NCBI RefSeq assembly: GCF_002305875.1
Contig: NZ_CP022098.1
Coordinates: 4,588,001-4,652,000 of the forward strand
Reading direction: 5' to 3'
DNA: 64,000 nucleotides
Origin: Cystobacter fuscus
GTDB taxonomy: Bacteria; Myxococcota; Myxococcia; Myxococcales; Myxococcaceae
How positions within the stretch are numbered: the first letter of the stretch is position 1; each line of letters opens with the position of its first letter. Shown here piece after piece: positions 5,848-18,447 of this stretch. The notes beneath the pieces were generated by a model, which worked only from the letters and a program-made list of their open reading frames with translations, searched no databases and was not told where the DNA came from. The translations under genes and the position numbers were made by a program.

Positions 5848-5890
5848 GGCGGTTGCCACCGCACGTCCTCGCGGGTTACATGGGCCATGT

Positions 5891-7913
<2,023 letters not shown>

Positions 7914-9501: not shown

Positions 9502-10800
9502 TCAGTCGCGCGGGTTGCCCTGGCGTCCCCCGGCGAGCACCGAGAGGACGACTCCCTGGTTGAGCGTGTTGGCGCCCGTGGTGCTGCTGGACGCCGGCGG
9601 AGCCGGAGGCGGCCGCACCGTGGGTCCCACCGGGCCGGGGATGGTCTGATCCAACTCGTCCATGTCCTCGGTCAGGCGGGCGAGCGTGGCCTCGGCCTCC
9701 TGGGCGTGGGCCTCGGCCTGCACCAGCGTCAGCTTCCGGTTCTGCATGTCCTCCTTGATCTTCACGAGCGCCTGCTCGCCGATATCGAGGAAGGCCCGGA
9801 CGACCTCGCGGTCGAACTGGGTGCCGGCGCAGCGGTGGATCTCCGCGATGGCGTTGGCGAAGGTGGTCCCCTTGCGGTAGGGCCGGTCGCTCGTCATCGC
9901 GTCCAGGGTGTCCGCCACGGCGAAGATGCGCGCGCCGATGTGGATCTCCTGGCCGCGGAGGTTGCGCGGATAGCCCTGGCCGTCCCAACGCTCCTGGTGC
10001 GACAGGACGATCTGCGCGGGCGTGGCGAGGAAGGGGATGTTCTGGATCATCTGGAAGCCGATGTCCGGATGCTTGCGCATCTCCTGCCACTCCTCGGGCG
10101 TGAGCTTGCCCGGCTTGAGCAGCACGGCGTCCGGCACGCCAATCTTCCCGATGTCATGCAGGAGCGCGCCGCGGCCGATCTCCTCCAGCTCCGGGCCCTT
10201 GATGCCCATGCGCTCGGCCACGGCGCTCGTGTAGCGCACCACGCGCTGCGAGTGGTCCGACGTCTCGTGCTCGCGCGCGTCCAGCGCCGCCACCAGGGCG
10301 AGCAGGGTGGACTGGTAGGTGTGGGCGATGTCGCGCAGGGCGTTGCGCAGCTCGGTGGTGCGGTCGCGCACCTTGCGCTCGAGCTTCTTCTGGTAGCGCT
10401 TGCGGGCCAGCTCGATGCGGCGCTTGGCCAGGGCGCGCTCGATGGCGCGGATGAGATCCGTCAGCTTCGGTGGCTTGAGCAGGTAGTCCACCGCGCCCCG
10501 GCGCAGGCAGTCCACCGCCGACTCGGTGTCCCCGTAGCCGGTGAGCATGATGACGGAGGTGTCCGGGTAGCGCTCGCGCAACTGCTCGAGCAGCCACAGG
10601 CCGTCCTTGCCCGGCATCTTCATGTCGCTGATGACCAGGGGCGTCTCTTCCTGGCCGGCGAGGTCCAGGGCCATTTCGGAGCCACTGGCCACAACGCAGT
10701 TGTAACCCTCCTCCCGAAGAAGGACGGAGATGACGTCGCGGACGGAGTCATCGTCATCGACGATGAGGATCCGGGGAGGTATGGGAGGAATGGCTTCCAC
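9502..10800 (-). CDS. HD-GYP domain response regulator
   Basis: A protein of about 432 residues. Residues 9-125 are a receiver domain with the acidic cluster DDDD around 15-18, phosphoacceptor Asp59 in VISDMKMPGKDG and a conserved LLKPPK lysine. A coiled linker leads to an HD-GYP domain containing LLHDIGKIGVPD, HQERWDGQGYP and ADTLDAMTSDRPYRK. HD-GYP domains are cyclic-di-GMP phosphodiesterases. The C-terminus is a proline-rich tail. The GTG at 10800 was chosen; an in-frame TTG at 10839 adds 13 residues. Neither has a clear ribosome-binding site, so the start is uncertain. The HHE motif of the domain reads SHQE here, a mild variation. Confidence 0.9.
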   Translation of the reverse strand: MEAIPPIPPRILIVDDDDSVRDVISVLLREEGYNCVVASGSEMALDLAGQEETPLVISDMKMPGKDGLWLLEQLRERYPDTSVIMLTGYGDTESAVDCLRRGAVDYLLKPPKLTDLIRAIERALAKRRIELARKRYQKKLERKVRDRTTELRNALRDIAHTYQSTLLALVAALDAREHETSDHSQRVVRYTSAVAERMGIKGPELEEIGRGALLHDIGKIGVPDAVLLKPGKLTPEEWQEMRKHPDIGFQMIQNIPFLATPAQIVLSHQERWDGQGYPRNLRGQEIHIGARIFAVADTLDAMTSDRPYRKGTTFANAIAEIHRCAGTQFDREVVRAFLDIGEQALVKIKEDMQNRKLTLVQAEAHAQEAEATLARLTEDMDELDQTIPGPVGPTVRPPPAPPASSSTTGANTLNQGVVLSVLAGGRQGNPRD

Positions 10801-11082
10801 GGGGTGTGATTCTAGGAGGAACGGGCAACAGAAGGCCAACCCGTCTCTGATTTTCAGCTCTCCTGGCTGTTCGATGGCCCGGAGATGTTCGCTCGCCGCC
10901 CCGTTCCCTCAGCATACGAGAAACGCTCGAAGCGGAAAGCTTCCAGGGTCATGAACCGTTGAGCGGGCGGTAGGAGCGCGAGCGGAGGTGAGCAGGCAGG
11001 CGAGCGTGACCCGGGAGGGGCGGATGAAGGCAATCTGGTGCCACCGGTTGACGGGGGAAGGGCTTTCCATTAGCAAGGAGCC

Positions 11083-11178
11083 GTGCACCTCGTGTCTGTC
11101 CACCATCATCCGGCGCATCATCATCGGTTCGGCCCCGACGGGTCCGATCACCGTGTGCATGCCTGGGTCGATGTCTAG
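11083..11178 (+). CDS. hisL: his operon leader peptide (HHHPAHHH)
   Basis: A 31-codon reading frame beginning GTG at 11083 (or 28 codons from the GTG at 11092) and ending TAG at 11176-11178. Codons 7-14 read His-His-His-Pro-Ala-His-His-His (11101-11124); up to nine His codons occur in total. AAGGAG at 11075-11080 is 11 bases before the second GTG, a usable ribosome-binding site. It lies directly upstream of a perfect terminator and hisG, the arrangement of a ribosome-stalling attenuator. Ribosomes would stall at His codons when charged tRNA-His is scarce. The frame and histidine run are directly visible; function is inferred from the enteric his and trp leader paradigm. Confidence 0.8.
   Translation: MHLVSVHHHPAHHHRFGPDGSDHRVHAWVDV
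11130..11146 (+). promoter_or_regulatory. his leader pause/anti-antiterminator hairpin
   Basis: Just after the histidine codons, CGG-C-CCC (11130-11136) pairs with GGG-T-CCG (11140-11146) around a GAC loop, with a single C/T mismatch. A ribosome held at the His codons would cover its 5' arm. This would free GACGGGT (11137-11143), which can pair with GCCCGTC (11213-11219), the 5' arm of the terminator, giving an antiterminator of 7 bp including one G-U. Confidence 0.55.
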
Positions 11179-11211
11179 AGACTGCCCACCGCACCTGCCG
11201 CAGTGAACGAA

Positions 11212-11240
11212 AGCCCGTCCCACCCCGGACGGGCTTTTTT
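11212..11240 (+). terminator. his attenuator (intrinsic terminator)
   Basis: AGCCCGTCC (11212-11220) and GGACGGGCT (11227-11235) form a perfect 9-bp GC-rich stem with a 6-nt loop, followed by six T residues (11235-11240). It ends 37 bp before the hisG ATG, after the His-rich leader, so it is positioned to terminate transcription ahead of the operon rather than after a gene. Its 5' arm is also the predicted partner of the antiterminator strand. Confidence 0.88.
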
Positions 11241-11277
11241 CGTTTCCGAGCCCGTCCCCACCCCAGGTCTCTCTCCG

Positions 11278-12128
11278 ATGCTGAAGATCGCCCTTCCCAA
11301 CAAAGGCCGCCTCTCCGACGAGGTTCGTGAACTATTCAACGATGCAGGGCTCGAGGTCCGCGTCCGAGGGGAGCGGGCCCTCACCGCGTCGCTCGGTGGC
11401 GAGTTCGAGGCCATCTTCGTGCGCGCCCAGGACATCCCCGAGTTCGTCGCCGATGGCGCGGCGGACGCGGGCGTCACCGGGTGGGATCTCGTGTGCGAGT
11501 CCGGCCGCGAGCTGGAGATGCTGATGGACCTGGAGTTCGGCCGATGCCGGCTCGTGGTGGCCGCGCGCGAGGAGAGCGGCATCCAGAAGCTGGAGGACAT
11601 CCAGGATGGCGTGCGGGTGGCGTCCTCCTTCACGCGCCTCACCCAGGAGTTCTTCGCCAAGAGGGGCCAGTCGGTGAAGGTGGTGCCGGTGTCGGGCGCC
11701 ACGGAGATCGCCCCCCACCTGGGCATCGCGGACATCATCGTGGACCTGACGTCCACGGGCTCGACGCTGAAGATGAACGGGCTGCGCGAGGTGGGCACCG
11801 TCGTCCAGTCGAGCGCACGGCTCATCGCGCGCAAGGGCCACTTGCCCGACGCGGCGGCCCAGTTGGAAGAGCTGCGGCAGGCGCTGGGCTCGGTGCTCGC
11901 GGCCCGGGGCAAGCGCTACCTCATGGCCAACGTGCCGCGCCGCGTGCTGCCGAACGTGCACGAGGTGCTGCCGGGCCTCAACGGGCCCACCGTGGTGGAG
12001 GTGCAGGGCGGTGACTTCGTGGCCGTGCACGCCGTGGTGCCCGCCCGCAACATCTACCGCACCATCAACGCCCTGAAGAACCTGGGCTGTCAGGGCATCC
12101 TCGTCACCCGCATCGAGAGGCTGATGCC

Positions 12129-12132
<4 letters not shown>
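11278..12132 (+). CDS. hisG: ATP phosphoribosyltransferase HisG (long form)
   Basis: A 284-residue cytosolic enzyme that joins ATP and PRPP in the first committed step of histidine synthesis. MLKIALPNKGRL is the typical start. The catalytic part contains the DVGITGWD-like DAGVTGWDL segment and the PRPP-binding DLTSTGSTL motif near residue 160. Residues about 200-284 form the C-terminal ACT-like domain that binds histidine for feedback inhibition, so this is the long, HisZ-independent form. An upstream in-frame ATG-less extension from 11203 runs through the terminator and was rejected. The stop overlaps the hisD start by 4 bp (ATGA). Expression is expected to be controlled by the upstream attenuator. 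Confidence 0.97.
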
Positions 12133-13426
<1,294 letters not shown>

Positions 13427-13430
<4 letters not shown>

Positions 13431-14464
13431 GCCTGCCCTCGCGTGCGTCGTACCGGGACATTCCGCTCTACTCGCCCTCCAAGGCGCGCTGCCGGGTGGA
13501 CTTGAGCGACAACACCAACCTCTTCGGCATGCCGCCCGCCGCCGAGCGCGTGCTGCGCGAGGTGGCCGTCCCCCTGGTGACGCGCTACCCCGTGGGCTAC
13601 TCGCCCGATCTGCGTGAGGCCGTGGCCCACTACACCGGCGTGGACACCGCCTGCGTCACCACCGGGTGCGGCTCGGACGACGTCATCGACAGCACCCTGC
13701 GCGCCTTCCTCGAGCCGGGCGAGCTCATCGCCTTTCCCTCGCCCACCTTCGTGATGATGTCCTACTTCGCCAAGGTCAACGGCCTGCGCTACGCCCCGGT
13801 GAACCTGCGGCCGGACTTCGACATCGACGTGGAGGGGCTGCTCGCCACCCAGGCGAAGCTCATCTACGTATGTTCGCCCAACAACCCCACGGGCACGGTG
13901 GCTTCGCGCGCCGCCCTGGAACGGCTGATCGAGCGCGCGCCCGGACTCGTCCTGCTCGACGAGGCCTATGCCGAGTTCGCCCGGGAGAGCCACCTGGACC
14001 TGGCGCGCCGGCCGAACGTGCTCGTGTCGCGCACGATGTCCAAGGCCTTCGGGCTCGCCTCCATGCGCGTGGGCTACGCGGTGGGCGCGCCGTCGCTCGT
14101 GGCCGAGGTGGAGAAGGCCCGCGGGCCCTACAAGGTGACGGCCCTGTCCGAGCGCATGGCCGTGGCGGCGCTGCGCGAGGACGTGCCGTGGATGCGGGCG
14201 AAGGTGGCCGAGTCCCTCGCCGTGCGCGAGCGGCTGGTGGCCGAGCTCCAGGGAATGGGGCTCACCTGCCTGCCCACCGAGGCCAACTTCGTGATGGTGA
14301 AGCTGCGCGGGGCGCTCGAGGTGGCGGAGCGGATGCGCGCGCGGGACGTGAACGTACGGGCTTTCGCGGGCCTGCCCGGCATCGGGGATGCGTTGCGCAT
14401 CGGATGCGGGCCCTGGGATGTGATTCAGACGGCGCTCGATGCGCTGCGGGAGGAGCGACGGTGA
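13427..14464 (+). CDS. hisC: Histidinol-phosphate aminotransferase
   Basis: A 345-residue fold-type I PLP enzyme that converts imidazole acetol phosphate to histidinol phosphate. Key features are LSDNTNLFG at the start, TTGCGSDDVID, CSPNNPTG (Asn near 152), LLDEAYAEF with Asp178, and the PLP-binding Lys206 in SRTMSKAFGLASMRVGY. The ATG at 13427 overlaps the hisD stop (ATGA); the frame extends further upstream to 13304, but that part lies inside hisD. The stop overlaps the GTG of hisH by 4 bp. The N-terminus is slightly shorter than that of many HisC proteins. Confidence 0.95.
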
Positions 14465-15054
14465 GAGTGACCCTGTTCGACTATGGCGCCGGCAACCTGC
14501 ACTCCCTCGCCAAGGCGCTCGCGCTGGCGCCGGGAGTCAAGGTGCACGTGGAGGAAGACCCCCTGCGTGCCCTGGACACGGACCTGCTGGTGCTGCCGGG
14601 TGTGGGGGCGTTCGGCGCCGCGATGGCGCGGCTGGCCCCGGGCGCCGAGAAGATGCGGCGCGCGTTGGACGACGGCCTGCCGTGTCTGGGCATCTGCCTG
14701 GGCATGCAGTTGCTCTTCGACGGCAGCGACGAGGGCGAGGGCCAGGGCCTGGGCTTCTTCCGGGGCCGGGTGACGCGGCTGACGTCCAAGCACGTGCCCC
14801 ACATCGGGTGGAACTCGGTGGAGGAGGACACCGCGCTGCGCGAGGAGAAGCCGGGAACCGTCTACTACGCGCACAGCTTCGCCTGCCGCGCCGAGGACCC
14901 CGACGTGGTGGTGGGTTGGACGACGCACGAGGGGGATCGCTTCCCGGCCTCGGTGCGGCGCGGCAAGGTGCTCGGCGTGCAGTTCCATCCGGAGAAGAGC
15001 TCGGCCGCGGGTGTGCGCTTCGTGCACGCCTTCCTGAAGGAGGTGGGCTCATGA
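14461..15054 (+). CDS. hisH: Imidazole glycerol phosphate synthase, glutamine amidotransferase subunit
   Basis: A 197-residue class I glutamine amidotransferase. It hydrolyses glutamine and channels ammonia to HisF. The catalytic triad is Cys79 (CLGICLGMQLLF), His176 and Glu178 (GVQFHPEKSS). The oxyanion-strand PGVGAF and the PHIGWNSV and YYAHSFA segments are typical. The GTG start at 14461 overlaps the hisC stop (GTGA); a second GTG two codons later is possible. The stop overlaps hisA (ATGA). The partner HisF is encoded three genes downstream. Confidence 0.95.
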   Translation: MRVTLFDYGAGNLHSLAKALALAPGVKVHVEEDPLRALDTDLLVLPGVGAFGAAMARLAPGAEKMRRALDDGLPCLGICLGMQLLFDGSDEGEGQGLGFFRGRVTRLTSKHVPHIGWNSVEEDTALREEKPGTVYYAHSFACRAEDPDVVVGWTTHEGDRFPASVRRGKVLGVQFHPEKSSAAGVRFVHAFLKEVGS

Positions 15055-15764
15055 TCGCCATTCCCGCCATCGACCTGCGCGAGGGCGCGTGCGTGCAACT
15101 CGTGGGCGGCTCCTATGCCGACGAGCGCGTACGGGTGAAGGATCCCCTGGAGGCCCTCAAGCGCTGGCGCTCGCACGGCTTCAAGACCTTCCATGTGGTG
15201 GACCTGGACGCCGCCCTGGGCAAGGGCTCCAACGAGGACGCCATCCGCGCGCTGCTCACGCACGAGCCGGGCCTCACCTTCTCGGTGGGAGGCGGCGTGC
15301 GCAGCACCGTCAAGGTGGAGTCGTTGCTCATGCTGGGCGCCACCTCCGTGGTGGTGGGCACGCGGGCCATCGAGGACGCGGACTGGCTGCGCGAGGTGGC
15401 CGAGCGCTTTCCGGGCCAGATCGTGGTCGCCGCGGACGTGAAGGGCCGCGAGGTGGTGACGCGCGGATGGACGTCTGGCAGCTCGCGCGACATCGGGAGC
15501 GTGCTGGAGTCGCTGGAGCGCCTGCCCCTGGCGGGCCTGCTCGTCACGGCTGTCCACAAGGAAGGGCAGATGGAGGGAGTGGACCTGCCACTGGTGGAGT
15601 CGGTGGTGCGCACGAGCCGCCATCCGCTGTCGGCCTCGGGAGGTGTGACGACGCTGGAGGACCTGCGGGCGCTCGGGCGCGTGGGGGCCAGCGGGGCCGT
15701 CATCGGCATGGCGCTGTACACGGGCAGATTGGACGCGGCCGAAGTGGCGCGGGAGTTCGCATGA
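15051..15764 (+). CDS. hisA: ProFAR isomerase HisA
   Basis: A 237-residue TIM barrel that performs the Amadori rearrangement of ProFAR to PRFAR. Catalytic aspartates are Asp8 (IPAIDL) and Asp129 (VVAADVKG). Phosphate-binding motifs are FSVGGGVR near residue 80 and the ASGGVTTLEDL segment near 190. Length is marginally short of the usual 240-250 residues but no motif is missing. The start overlaps the hisH stop and the stop overlaps hisB, both by ATGA. Confidence 0.95.
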   Translation: MIAIPAIDLREGACVQLVGGSYADERVRVKDPLEALKRWRSHGFKTFHVVDLDAALGKGSNEDAIRALLTHEPGLTFSVGGGVRSTVKVESLLMLGATSVVVGTRAIEDADWLREVAERFPGQIVVAADVKGREVVTRGWTSGSSRDIGSVLESLERLPLAGLLVTAVHKEGQMEGVDLPLVESVVRTSRHPLSASGGVTTLEDLRALGRVGASGAVIGMALYTGRLDAAEVAREFA

Positions 15765-16297
15765 CAACCATCGTTCGGGAAACGAAGGAAACGAAGGTCA
15801 CGGTGCAGATCGCCCTGGGCAAGGGCATCGCCCAGGTGGACACCGGCCAGCCCTTCTTCGATCACATGCTCGGCACCTTCGCGCGCTACGCGGGGTTGGA
15901 CCTCACGCTGCACGCCCGAGGAGATCTGCGCCATCACCTCATGGAGGACGTGGCCATCACCCTGGGCACCGCCGTGCAGAAGGTCGTCCCCGCCACGGCC
16001 GCGCGCTACGGCGAGCGCACCGTGCCCATGGATGACGCGCTCGTGCAGGCGTGCATCGACGTGGGCGGGCGCTTCTATTACCGCGGCCCCCTGCGCAACA
16101 AACTCTACGAGCACGTGATGCGCTCGTTCTGCGAGCACGCCCGGGTGACGCTGCACCTGCGCATCCTCCGCGGCAAGGACAGCCACCATGTGACGGAGGC
16201 GGCCTTCAAGGCGCTCGGCATGGCGCTGCGCGATGCGATGGTGGATTCGGGCGTGGTGTTCAGCACGAAGGGCGCCGTCGCCCTGGAGGTGAAGTGA
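15761..16297 (+). CDS. hisB: Imidazoleglycerol-phosphate dehydratase (monofunctional)
   Basis: A 178-residue manganese enzyme that dehydrates IGP to imidazole acetol phosphate. Two metal-binding histidine motifs are visible: HHLMED with His58, His59, Glu62 and Asp63, and SHHVTEAAFKALG. FFDHMLGTFARYAGLDL is conserved. There is no N-terminal phosphatase domain, unlike the enteric bifunctional protein; this role is filled by the IMP-family gene at 17060. Relative to the usual GD-x3-DDHHTVED the first motif is about three residues shorter. The hisF gene begins 1 bp after the stop. Confidence 0.95.
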   Translation: MTTIVRETKETKVTVQIALGKGIAQVDTGQPFFDHMLGTFARYAGLDLTLHARGDLRHHLMEDVAITLGTAVQKVVPATAARYGERTVPMDDALVQACIDVGGRFYYRGPLRNKLYEHVMRSFCEHARVTLHLRILRGKDSHHVTEAAFKALGMALRDAMVDSGVVFSTKGAVALEVK

Positions 16298-16298
16298 G

Positions 16299-17057
16299 AT
16301 GCTCACGCGACGACTCATCGTCTGTCTGGATGTGAAGGGCGGCCGCGTGGTCAAGGGCGTCCAGTTCGAGGGCCTGCGCGACGTGGGAGATCCCGTGGAG
16401 CTCGCCCTGCGCTACGAGGAGGCGGGCGCCGACGAGGTGACCTTCCTCGACATCTCCGCCACCCAGGAGGAGCGCGGCACGTTGTGGGAGCTGGTGCGGC
16501 GCACCGCCGAGCGGCTGTTCATCCCGCTCACGGTGGGGGGCGGCGTGCGCACGGCGGACGACGTGGGCCGGGCCCTGCGGGCGGGCGCGGACAAGGTGAG
16601 CATCAACTCGGCGGCGGTGGCCCGTCCCGAGGTGCTCACCGAGTGCGCCGAGCGCTTCGGTGCCCAGTGCGTGGTGGCGAGCATCGACGCCAAGCGCGAC
16701 GGGGCGAGCTGGCGCGTGTACACCCATGGCGGCAAGAAGCCCACGGACCTGGATGCCATCGCCTGGGCGCGCGAGTGTGTGAAACGCGGCGCGGGGGAGA
16801 TCCTGCTCACGAGCATCGATCGGGATGGTGCCCGTTCGGGGTATGACCTGGAGCTGACCCGGGCCGTCGCCGAGGGGGTGGCGGTTCCCGTCATCGCCTC
16901 GGGAGGCGCTGGCAACGCGGAGCATGTCCAGGCCGCGCTGAGGGAGGGTGGGGCGGACGCGGCGCTGGTGGCGGGCATCCTCCACGACGGCGTCACCACG
17001 GTGGGAGCCATCAAGACGCTGCTGCGAGGCAGTGGTCTGGAAATCAGGAGTCATTGA
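16299..17057 (+). CDS. hisF: Imidazole glycerol phosphate synthase, cyclase subunit
   Basis: A 252-residue TIM barrel that uses ammonia from HisH to cyclise PRFAR into IGP and AICAR. Catalytic residues are Asp11 (VCLDVKGGRVVKG) and Asp130 (VVASIDAKRDG). The phosphate-binding segments TVGGGVRTADD and ASGGAGNAEH and the KVSINSAAV strand are typical. Length is standard. It follows hisB with a single base between stop and start, and the next gene has its own AGGAG within the hisF 3' end. Confidence 0.97.
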   Translation: MLTRRLIVCLDVKGGRVVKGVQFEGLRDVGDPVELALRYEEAGADEVTFLDISATQEERGTLWELVRRTAERLFIPLTVGGGVRTADDVGRALRAGADKVSINSAAVARPEVLTECAERFGAQCVVASIDAKRDGASWRVYTHGGKKPTDLDAIAWARECVKRGAGEILLTSIDRDGARSGYDLELTRAVAEGVAVPVIASGGAGNAEHVQAALREGGADAALVAGILHDGVTTVGAIKTLLRGSGLEIRSH

Positions 17058-17059
17058 GC

Positions 17060-17833
17060 ATGGATGCGCGTTCGTTGATGCAGGCGGCGGAGGAAGTGGC
17101 CCGCAAGTCGGGCGACGTGGCACTGGGCTTCTTCCGCCAGGGCGTCACGGTGGACACCAAGGGAGACGGCACTCCGGTGACGGTGGCGGACCGGACGGCC
17201 GAGAAGACGGCGCGCGAGTGGATTGAATCGCGCTTCCCCGAGGACGGCATCCTCGGGGAGGAGTTCGGCGAGACGCGGCCCGGAGCGAAGCGCCGATGGA
17301 TCCTGGATCCCATCGACGGCACCAAGACGTTCATCCGCGGGGTGCCGCTGTGGGGCACGCTGGTGGCGGTGACCGAGGGCGAGACGATCCTCGCGGGCGC
17401 GGCGTACTTCCCGCCCGTGGGGGAGATGCTGGTGGCGGCGCCGGGGCAGGGCTGCTGGTGGAATGGAAAGCGGACGAAGGTGTCGGCCGAGGCCGATCTG
17501 TCGCGCGCCCTGGTGCTGACCACCGACGAGCGCTTCCTGACGTATCCCCAGCGCGGGGCGGCGTGGCGGGGCCTGGCGGCCAAGGCGTCCGTCTCCCGGA
17601 CCTGGGGGGATTGCTACGGCTACCTGATGTTGGCCACCGGCCGGGCCGAGGTGATGGTCGACGAGCTGATGTCCCCCTGGGACGCGGCCGCGCTGCAGCC
17701 CATCATCGAGGAGGCCGGCGGCGTCTTCACGGACTGGACGGGCAAGCGCACGGCGTTCGGCGGCAACTGCATCGCCACCAACGCGGTGCTCGCACAGCAG
17801 GTGCGCGAGCTGCTCGGGGCGAAGGGGACATGA
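17060..17833 (+). CDS. hisN: Histidinol-phosphatase, inositol monophosphatase family
   Basis: A 257-residue magnesium-dependent phosphatase of the IMP superfamily. Signature motifs are GEE at 66-68, the [12 protein letters not shown] segment with Asp83 and Asp86, and [18 protein letters not shown]. Operon position, together with the absence of a HisB phosphatase domain, supports histidinol-phosphate as substrate; inositol phosphatase activity cannot be excluded from sequence alone. The ATG at 17060 has AGGAG nine bases upstream. A TTG at 17054 overlapping the hisF stop is in frame but has poor spacing. The stop overlaps hisIE by ATGA. Confidence 0.88.
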
Positions 17834-18447
17834 TGTTGGACTTGTCGAAGCTGGATTTCACCAAGGGCAACGGGCTGGTGACGGTGGTGACGCAGGATGC
17901 CCACACGGGTGACCTGCTCATGGTCGCGCACGCGGACCGCGAGGCGCTCGAGAAGACGCTCGAGACGGGCGAGATGTACTACCGCTCGCGCTCGCGGGGC
18001 TTGTGGCACAAGGGCGGCACGAGCGGAAACGTGCAGCGCGTGGTGTCCCTCACGGCCGACTGCGACGCGGACGCGGTGCTCGCCCGGGTGGAAAAGGCGG
18101 GTCCGGCCTGTCACACCGGAGCGGAGACGTGCTTCGACATCGGTCCGGTGGATGCGCTCGTGGCGCTGGACAGGACCATCGCCGAGCGCGCCACGAAGGC
18201 CCCGGAGCCCGGTGAGAAGCCGAGCTACACGCGGCGGCTCCTGGACGACCGCAACCTGCGCTTGAAGAAGATCGGCGAGGAAGCGGTGGAACTGGTGACG
18301 GCCTGCGCCGATGGCGACAAGGAGCGCGCGGCCGAGGAGGCCGCCGACGTCCTCTACCATCTGCTCGTGGCGGTGCGGCCATTGGGCGTGACGCTGGAGG
18401 ACGTGAAGGCGGTGCTCGCGCGCCGCGCCAGCAAGCCGGCGAAGTGA
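17830..18447 (+). CDS. hisI: Bifunctional phosphoribosyl-AMP cyclohydrolase/phosphoribosyl-ATP pyrophosphatase
   Basis: A 205-residue fused HisIE protein performing steps 2 and 3 of the pathway. Residues 1-110 are the cyclohydrolase: the [17 protein letters not shown] segment, metal ligands in DCDADAVL (Asp77, Cys78, Asp79, Asp81) and zinc cysteines Cys94 and Cys101 in [10 protein letters not shown]. Residues 125-205 are the pyrophosphohydrolase with [13 protein letters not shown] and [12 protein letters not shown]. Two adjacent ATG codons (17830, 17833) are possible starts. It is the last gene of the operon; the next gene is convergent 10 bp away. Confidence 0.95.

Follow-up and report, generated by a model that had tools for sequence, protein, structure and literature searches.

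A probable ribosome-mediated attenuator, predicted to be translated from a leaderless mRNA, upstream of the his operon of Cystobacter fuscus

The short histidine-rich leader that precedes hisG in Cystobacter fuscus very probably controls the entire his operon by ribosome-mediated transcription attenuation, in the manner of enteric hisL. It was analysed within a window of 64,000 nucleotides of contig NZ_CP022098.1, and all coordinates given here are those of the window. The attenuator reading is based on the anatomy of the leader, its conservation, its covariation and the position dependence of its pairing in a folding model; from these we infer its start point, its kinetics and its response to histidine.

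The leader ORF (11083..11178, + strand) starts with a GTG at the predicted +1 and runs for 31 codons to a TAG stop codon at 11176-11178; translation from GTG 11083 gives the peptide MHLVSVHHHPAHHHRFGPDGSDHRVHAWVDV. Its control codons, CAC CAT CAT CCG GCG CAT CAT CAT (HHHPAHHH), lie at 11101..11124 and place six His in eight positions, as the first-pass annotation of this DNA had described for a short GTG frame. Past them lies a sequestering (anti-antiterminator) hairpin, GGCCC-CGAC-GGGTC (11131..11144, arms 11131-11135/11140-11144), which covers the antiterminator strand, or strand 2 (11137..11151, with the core GACGGGT at 11137-11143). Strand 2 can form a duplex with the 5' side of the terminator, and its 3' partner (11206..11219) extends upstream of the terminator 5' arm. 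The intrinsic terminator itself (11209..11240) has its stem at 11209-11238, its loop at 11221-11226 and a T6 run at 11235-11240 that ends 37 nt upstream of the hisG ATG; the core GCCCGTCC/GGACGGGC corresponds to 11213-11220/11227-11234, and the terminator scan counts 12 pairs in the stem, A-U ends included. All of these elements are on the + strand, and both GACGGGT and the T6 terminator were found where they had first been placed. The pause-type hairpin noted at the same time is also present, but it is a long structure in which bases of the His codons pair with the tail of the ORF and which encloses the small conserved hairpin GGCCC/GGGTC. The region contains two terminator-like sites against 0.3 in shuffled sequences, the second being the same hairpin read on the reverse strand, and the predicted fold of the 168-nt leader is better than that of 197 of 200 shuffled versions (z -2.93). 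Directly past the T-run, at 11250-11257, the terminator 5' arm GCCCGTCC occurs a second time, with similar copies in several Archangium-group leaders; this copy is possibly a spare partner for GGACGGGC. As regards codon use, the his operon has 33 CAC and 10 CAT, while the control codons of the Myxococcaceae set are mostly CAT (316/415).

The leader is followed by hisG (11278..12132, + strand), the first gene of the operon, which encodes the long form of the enzyme with a C-terminal domain (TIGR00070, 217.5 bits; TIGR03455, 96.6 bits). Next come hisD, hisC, hisH, hisA, hisB, hisF, hisN and hisIE (12129..18447, + strand), assigned with NCBIfam models, the best model for hisC, hisA and hisB scoring below its curated cut-off. 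The nine-gene operon hisGDCHABF-hisN-hisIE is a complete his set, in which hisN encodes an inositol-monophosphatase-like histidinol phosphatase. Upstream, the closest gene (9502-10839) encodes a response regulator with an HD domain and runs on the - strand; no Pfam family matched the + frame that faces it. With no + strand gene upstream, the terminator therefore has no other gene to serve in the gap of ~440 bp. Elsewhere in the window, a TPP riboswitch (RF00059, 70.6 bits; 5885-5993, + strand) lies ahead of thiC (PF01964, 616.6 bits; frame 5943-7913).

Relatives of the leader were gathered via hisG, which was found at E 1e-40 or better in 72 of the 145 genomes of the order (71 at an identity of at least 65%); of 122 named loci from a species-level collection, the best 80 were added. 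This gave 151 loci with hisG, 121 of them non-redundant, that is, differing in the last 150 nt. The named loci belong to Archangium, Hyalangium, Myxococcus, Corallococcus and Pyxidicoccus, to many Gemmatimonadota, to three Eisenbacteria and to MAGs under other labels; alignable leaders upstream of hisG are thus also present in Gemmatimonadota and Eisenbacteria records. The first-pass annotation had proposed to look upstream of hisG across relatives for conserved His codons and covarying hairpins, and both have been kept: 119 of the 121 non-redundant loci carry 4 to 7 His per 9 codons, and the hairpins covary. The two loci without a His run have just 77 and 20 nt of contig upstream. A terminator is found by a simple rule in 115 of the 119 leaders, and inspection by eye showed longer or interrupted hairpins in the other four. 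The pattern HHH-2 codons-HH occurs in 33 places in the 12.35-Mb genome, against 9 for a reversed control, so that simple arithmetic gives a chance of ~3e-4 of its falling within 200 nt before hisG. Eight of 18 genomes checked (G085, G087, G091, G128, G131, G049, G037 and G144), six of them in this family, had no HisG match and are perhaps incomplete assemblies or histidine auxotrophs.

What has been conserved downstream of the His run is RNA rather than peptide. The peptide there typically reads GPDGT in the Myxococcaceae set and HGPTGRG in the Gemmatimonadota set, and GGCCC(C)GACGGG encodes both, in different frames. Relative to the His codons, 70 of 71 Myxococcaceae-set leaders have CGGG in frame 2, and of 45 Gemmatimonadota-set leaders 41 have it in frame 1 and four in frame 0; since the two groups thus read the antiterminator strand in different frames, it is the RNA that is conserved. 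GACGGG can pair either back, with the GGCCC just upstream, or forward, with the CCCGTC of the terminator 5' arm. Over 39 leaders, 93.2% of the cells of the sequestering hairpin are paired, its outer pair being G-C, A-U, C-G or G-U, and the terminator plus sequestering hairpin reach 97.0%, with 23 double-change cells against 4.8 in shuffles (0/500). For the antiterminator in the same 39 leaders the corresponding values are 81.7% paired against 78.6% in shuffles (2/500; slid versions, 35-54%) and 18 double-change cells against 10.9 (5/500), with no excess in the number of pairs that show a double change (5 against 4.4). By these sequence counts, which like the swap counts below are inflated by the relatedness of the sequences, the antiterminator covaries more weakly than the terminator plus sequestering hairpin.

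Swapping partners between leaders was used as a further measure of antiterminator pairing. Outside the core, the native partner wins in 44 of 60 swaps (p 3e-5), with 25/37 in the Gemmatimonadota set (p 0.02) and 16/23 in the Myxococcaceae set (p 0.07). Swapping of the whole arm between species discriminates poorly, since the core hardly varies, and gave 16/33 (p 0.46) in the Myxococcaceae set and 26/43 (p 0.049) in the Gemmatimonadota set. In the window itself, 11 of 100 shuffles of the antiterminator strand pair as well as the native one; striking single cases of antiterminator pairing are L099 (CGGGCTTTCGTG against CACGAAAGCCCG) and L090. The mutually exclusive antiterminator claimed at first reading, GACGGGT against the terminator 5' arm, is accordingly conserved and favoured by the outside-core swaps, with covariation weaker than that of the terminator.

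The effect of ribosome position was followed in a folding model that masks all RNA as far as 11 nt beyond the A-site codon. It scores the upstream pairing of the terminator 5' arm before the 3' arm exists. In the window, the modelled antiterminator probability averages 0.85 across the His codons and 0.14 across later codons, and is 0.003 at the stop codon and 0.08 in ribosome-free RNA. Among 109 loci, the His codons beat the later codons in 63/63 of the Myxococcaceae set and 45/46 of the Gemmatimonadota set, with like results for front offsets of 8, 11 or 14 nt, although part of this effect is geometry, because strand 2 stands right past the His codons and is covered by the advancing ribosome. 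In equilibrium folding, the finished terminator reaches 1.00 in the window at every ribosome position, and in the 12 loci listed it wins except in L099, L090 and at one codon of L085. Antitermination must therefore be kinetic. If the RNA behind the ribosome is left free to pair, the antiterminator probability in the window is 0.84 at the stop codon versus 0.85 at the His codons; the Myxococcaceae set then gives 0.35 at the stop codon versus 0.91 at the His codons, and the Gemmatimonadota set 0.71 versus 0.77, with the His codons above the stop codon in 19 of 46 loci. In the window the stop-codon state thus looks antiterminated when the rear RNA pairs, and the Gemmatimonadota set shows no separation, so that termination under plentiful histidine requires the ribosome to leave quickly or to block this pairing sterically. 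For ribosome-free RNA, the antiterminator probability is 0.19 in the Myxococcaceae set and 0.63 in the Gemmatimonadota set, so that the untranslated state is not clearly off in the latter; an off state without translation is supported by the model in the Myxococcaceae set, not in the Gemmatimonadota set.

In the proposed mechanism, the transcript would begin at or near GTG 11083, and a ribosome would load onto its bare 5' end. When histidyl-tRNA is short, this ribosome would wait on the His codons and cover the 5' arm of the hairpin that hides GACGGGT; the freed GACGGGT could then pair with the terminator's 5' side while the 3' arm has yet to be transcribed, letting the polymerase continue into hisG. 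When histidine is plentiful, the ribosome would cover GACGGGT, or depart and let the hairpins reform, and transcription would stop at about 11240. A leader that is not translated would keep GACGGGT concealed in its hairpins, and transcription would be expected to stop as well.

The loading step depends on where the transcript starts. The predicted promoter consists of a -35 element TTGACG (11048..11053, + strand) and, 17 bp from it, a -10 element TAGCAA (11071..11076, + strand) that ends 6 bp before GTG 11083. A rule that requires a -35 of TTGA- or TTGCG-type, a spacer of 16-18 bp and an A in the -10 gave promoter pairs in 114 of the 119 leaders (two leaders are too short and three have no pair); TTGAC is present in 110 of the 114, and the -10 begins with TA in 68/70 Myxococcaceae-set and 43/44 Gemmatimonadota-set leaders. 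The call rests on conservation, because a strict consensus sigma-70 scan of the region found no promoter, and only the tight spacing between the -10 and the start codon counts as evidence, because the -35, the spacer and the A in the -10 were demanded by the rule itself. This spacing is 7 nt in 55 of the 70 Myxococcaceae-set leaders and 6-9 nt in 69; in the Gemmatimonadota set it is 8-10 nt in 30 of 44 and 2-11 nt in all 44. Measured from the predicted -10, a 5' UTR of roughly 0-5 nt is left. The start codon is GTG in 59 and ATG in 11 leaders of the Myxococcaceae set, and ATG in 44/44 of the Gemmatimonadota set. Judged by these comparisons, the first GTG (11083), six bases past the -10, is the conserved start, and the leader is therefore probably leaderless: its mRNA probably has neither a 5' UTR nor a Shine-Dalgarno sequence, and transcription would start no more than a base or two from GTG 11083. 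The earlier suggestion that TTGACG and TAGCAA place +1 at the first GTG, perhaps without a 5' UTR, thus agrees with the conserved, predicted spacing.

The same annotation had nevertheless favoured the second GTG (11092) because of AAGGAG at 11075, and an attenuator with a normal 5' UTR, whose transcript would start further upstream and whose ribosomes would load from AAGGAG, has to be weighed against the leaderless start. AAGGAG does lie 11 nt ahead of GTG 11092, and the negative strict promoter scan fits a start elsewhere. Moreover, a missing Shine-Dalgarno sequence is by itself a weak argument, because SD-like letters are rare ahead of the hisG start too (21/68 loci of the Myxococcaceae set and 6/44 of the Gemmatimonadota set), and for this reason the argument for a leaderless mRNA rests on the spacing. 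However, AAGGAG is present in 2 of 119 leaders and overlaps the -10, and a GTG 2-4 codons ahead of the first His has been kept in 4 of 118. Together with the spacing kept in the Myxococcaceae set, this goes against the preference for the second GTG and makes a normal 5' UTR unlikely.

The other readings appear less probable still. GC-rich-stem terminators are common, and three weak matches to our covariance model, together with its second-best match in the C. fuscus genome, are ordinary gene-end terminators by eye, so the structure before hisG might be imagined as nothing more than a premature terminator that acts constitutively, or as the place where another transcript ends, with a His-rich frame next to it by chance. 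Yet the His codons recur in almost every locus, accompanied by a terminator in 115 of them, the upstream region has no gene in the same direction, and GACGGG has been kept although its frame differs between the groups; by sequence conservation this explanation is largely refuted, and we give it very little credence. Scarcely any weight is given, likewise, to a nascent-peptide or histidine-binding arrest peptide, in which a conserved peptide and not uncharged tRNA would stall the ribosome: within Myxococcaceae there is conservation past the His run (for example, RLGPDGTVRHAHAW), but the groups have different residues there (PDGT versus PTGRG), since one and the same RNA is read in another frame. 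Least probable of all is a histidine T-box or another ligand-binding riboswitch. T-boxes are used by some his operons of other phyla, according to the cited part of PMC9413887, but at the gathering score no Rfam family, T-box included, matched the leader or 19 other loci. With E-values up to 10, the Rfam search gave no histidine leader, and the lowest E-value among the weak matches was 0.075; a weak match to Thr_leader rests on the terminator, and one to rnk_pseudo on the terminator plus spacer.

The attenuator reading was also examined for specificity with a covariance model built from 39 leaders. In the 12.35-Mb genome it scores 94.2 bits at the window leader, against 28.8 bits for the next best match. 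Within the order, strong matches (E 6.5e-7 or better) occur in exactly 71 of 145 genomes, those with a HisG at least 65% identical, and all 71 are on the same strand, 25-68 nt upstream of hisG; these counts speak to specificity and less to discovery, because the leaders used for model building match by construction. The next match in the order (E 1.1e-6) looks like an ordinary terminator, and a looser tally of 110/145 genomes at E 0.1 includes chance matches. Among 195 genomes of the phylum, matches at the 6.5e-7 level are confined to this family, and six genomes (Gemmatimonadota and others) that were reached via their loci have one strong match each. A search of a plasmid collection found no similar DNA. 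Weak secondary matches were inspected by eye at seven places elsewhere and one in the own genome: L213, L216, L217 and L204 are ordinary terminators, L214 and L219 are coding stretches, and L215 and L218 are the Thr leader of a thrS paralogue.

That paralogue deserves mention in its own right. A shorter threonyl-tRNA synthetase-like protein has 6-8 Thr per 10 codons within 300 nt upstream of its gene in 8/8 loci of the same family (L231-L238), and no such frame precedes the longer threonyl-tRNA synthetases (0/16). In the C. fuscus genome (L233, G000:C1:10000954) the frame lies about 170 nt upstream of the match, for example VSFVRATTTTTTTATSLGGSGLVRGVS; inspection by eye shows a long GC hairpin in these loci, but no T-run. 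The Thr-rich frame is a candidate Thr attenuator, and its occurrence in all eight loci suggests that myxobacteria may use codon-run leaders more widely.

Textbook attenuation was established in enterics with a Shine-Dalgarno-led leader. RF00514 (gathering cut-off 49 bits) matched nothing in the window or in the 20 loci, and its two weak matches in the own genome lie elsewhere. As far as the cited part of PMC9413887 describes it, hisL shares with the window leader a His-codon leader peptide, a competing antiterminator and an intrinsic terminator before hisG. Unlike hisL, the window leader is unmatched by RF00514, probably has neither a 5' UTR nor a Shine-Dalgarno sequence, and carries strand 2 inside the leader ORF, with a small hairpin there that hides it. 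It is predicted to work like hisL, but it is not a detected RF00514 member; the sequestering hairpin inside it and the probably leaderless start make it a variant. The first-pass annotation saw here the hisL logic outside the gamma-proteobacteria; conservation supports the attenuator part of that statement, but 'outside' is not new, because histidine leader peptides have been predicted from sequence in Firmicutes before his or hisS/hisZ genes, with a His run, a terminator and an antiterminator, in the cited parts of PMC9413887 and, for hisS/hisZ, PMC2965389. Those leaders belong to another phylum and were set beside the window leader by description; the cited part of the 2010 paper reports no sequence similarity between the Firmicutes and Proteobacteria leaders (PMC2965389). 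A leaderless leader ORF also has a precedent, since the trpL attenuator transcript of Sinorhizobium meliloti begins at the ATG of the leader ORF, although that system responds to tryptophan, belongs to an alphaproteobacterium and releases an RNA and a peptide that act in trans, as the cited part of PMC7298713 describes. No publication on a his attenuator in myxobacteria or Gemmatimonadota was found among those listed for the open-licence literature.

The leader and its operon appear to share their descent. The HisG proteins found in Gemmatimonadota and Eisenbacteria share about 65-73% identity with that of C. fuscus, and ten HisG from other lineages of the order, including two from its own family, share 33-41%. 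Nine of these ten distant loci have no run of 4 His per 9 codons within 700 nt upstream, and in the tenth (L224) the single run, of 5 His, is at -571, a long way from the usual position. In a 48-row HisG tree, the leader-bearing HisG lie to the same side of a branch with good support (98/93), to be read with caution because of long outgroup branches, and hisD is present on 48 of 50 Gemmatimonadota-set loci. From this pattern, the operon and its attenuator have probably been exchanged between phyla, in either direction. On balance we lean towards a lineage of histidine attenuators unmatched by the Rfam enteric model: a compact cassette with a leaderless mRNA, in which a three-way RNA switch is joined to promoter, start codon and control codons, and which would have moved among Gemmatimonadota, Eisenbacteria and Myxococcaceae together with a distinctive his operon.

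If this is true, regulation of the operon would hinge on both histidyl-tRNA and leaderless initiation, and the terminated RNA (about 160 nt) could serve as a small mRNA in trans, like rnTrpL. The covariance model is ready for use on leaders that no Rfam family matched and offers a route to annotating short ORFs that gene callers tend to overlook. The logic of attenuation is strongly conserved in these other bacterial groups, apparently on a leader without a 5' UTR, and such a leader makes it directly testable how leaderless initiation couples the first ribosome to RNA polymerase.
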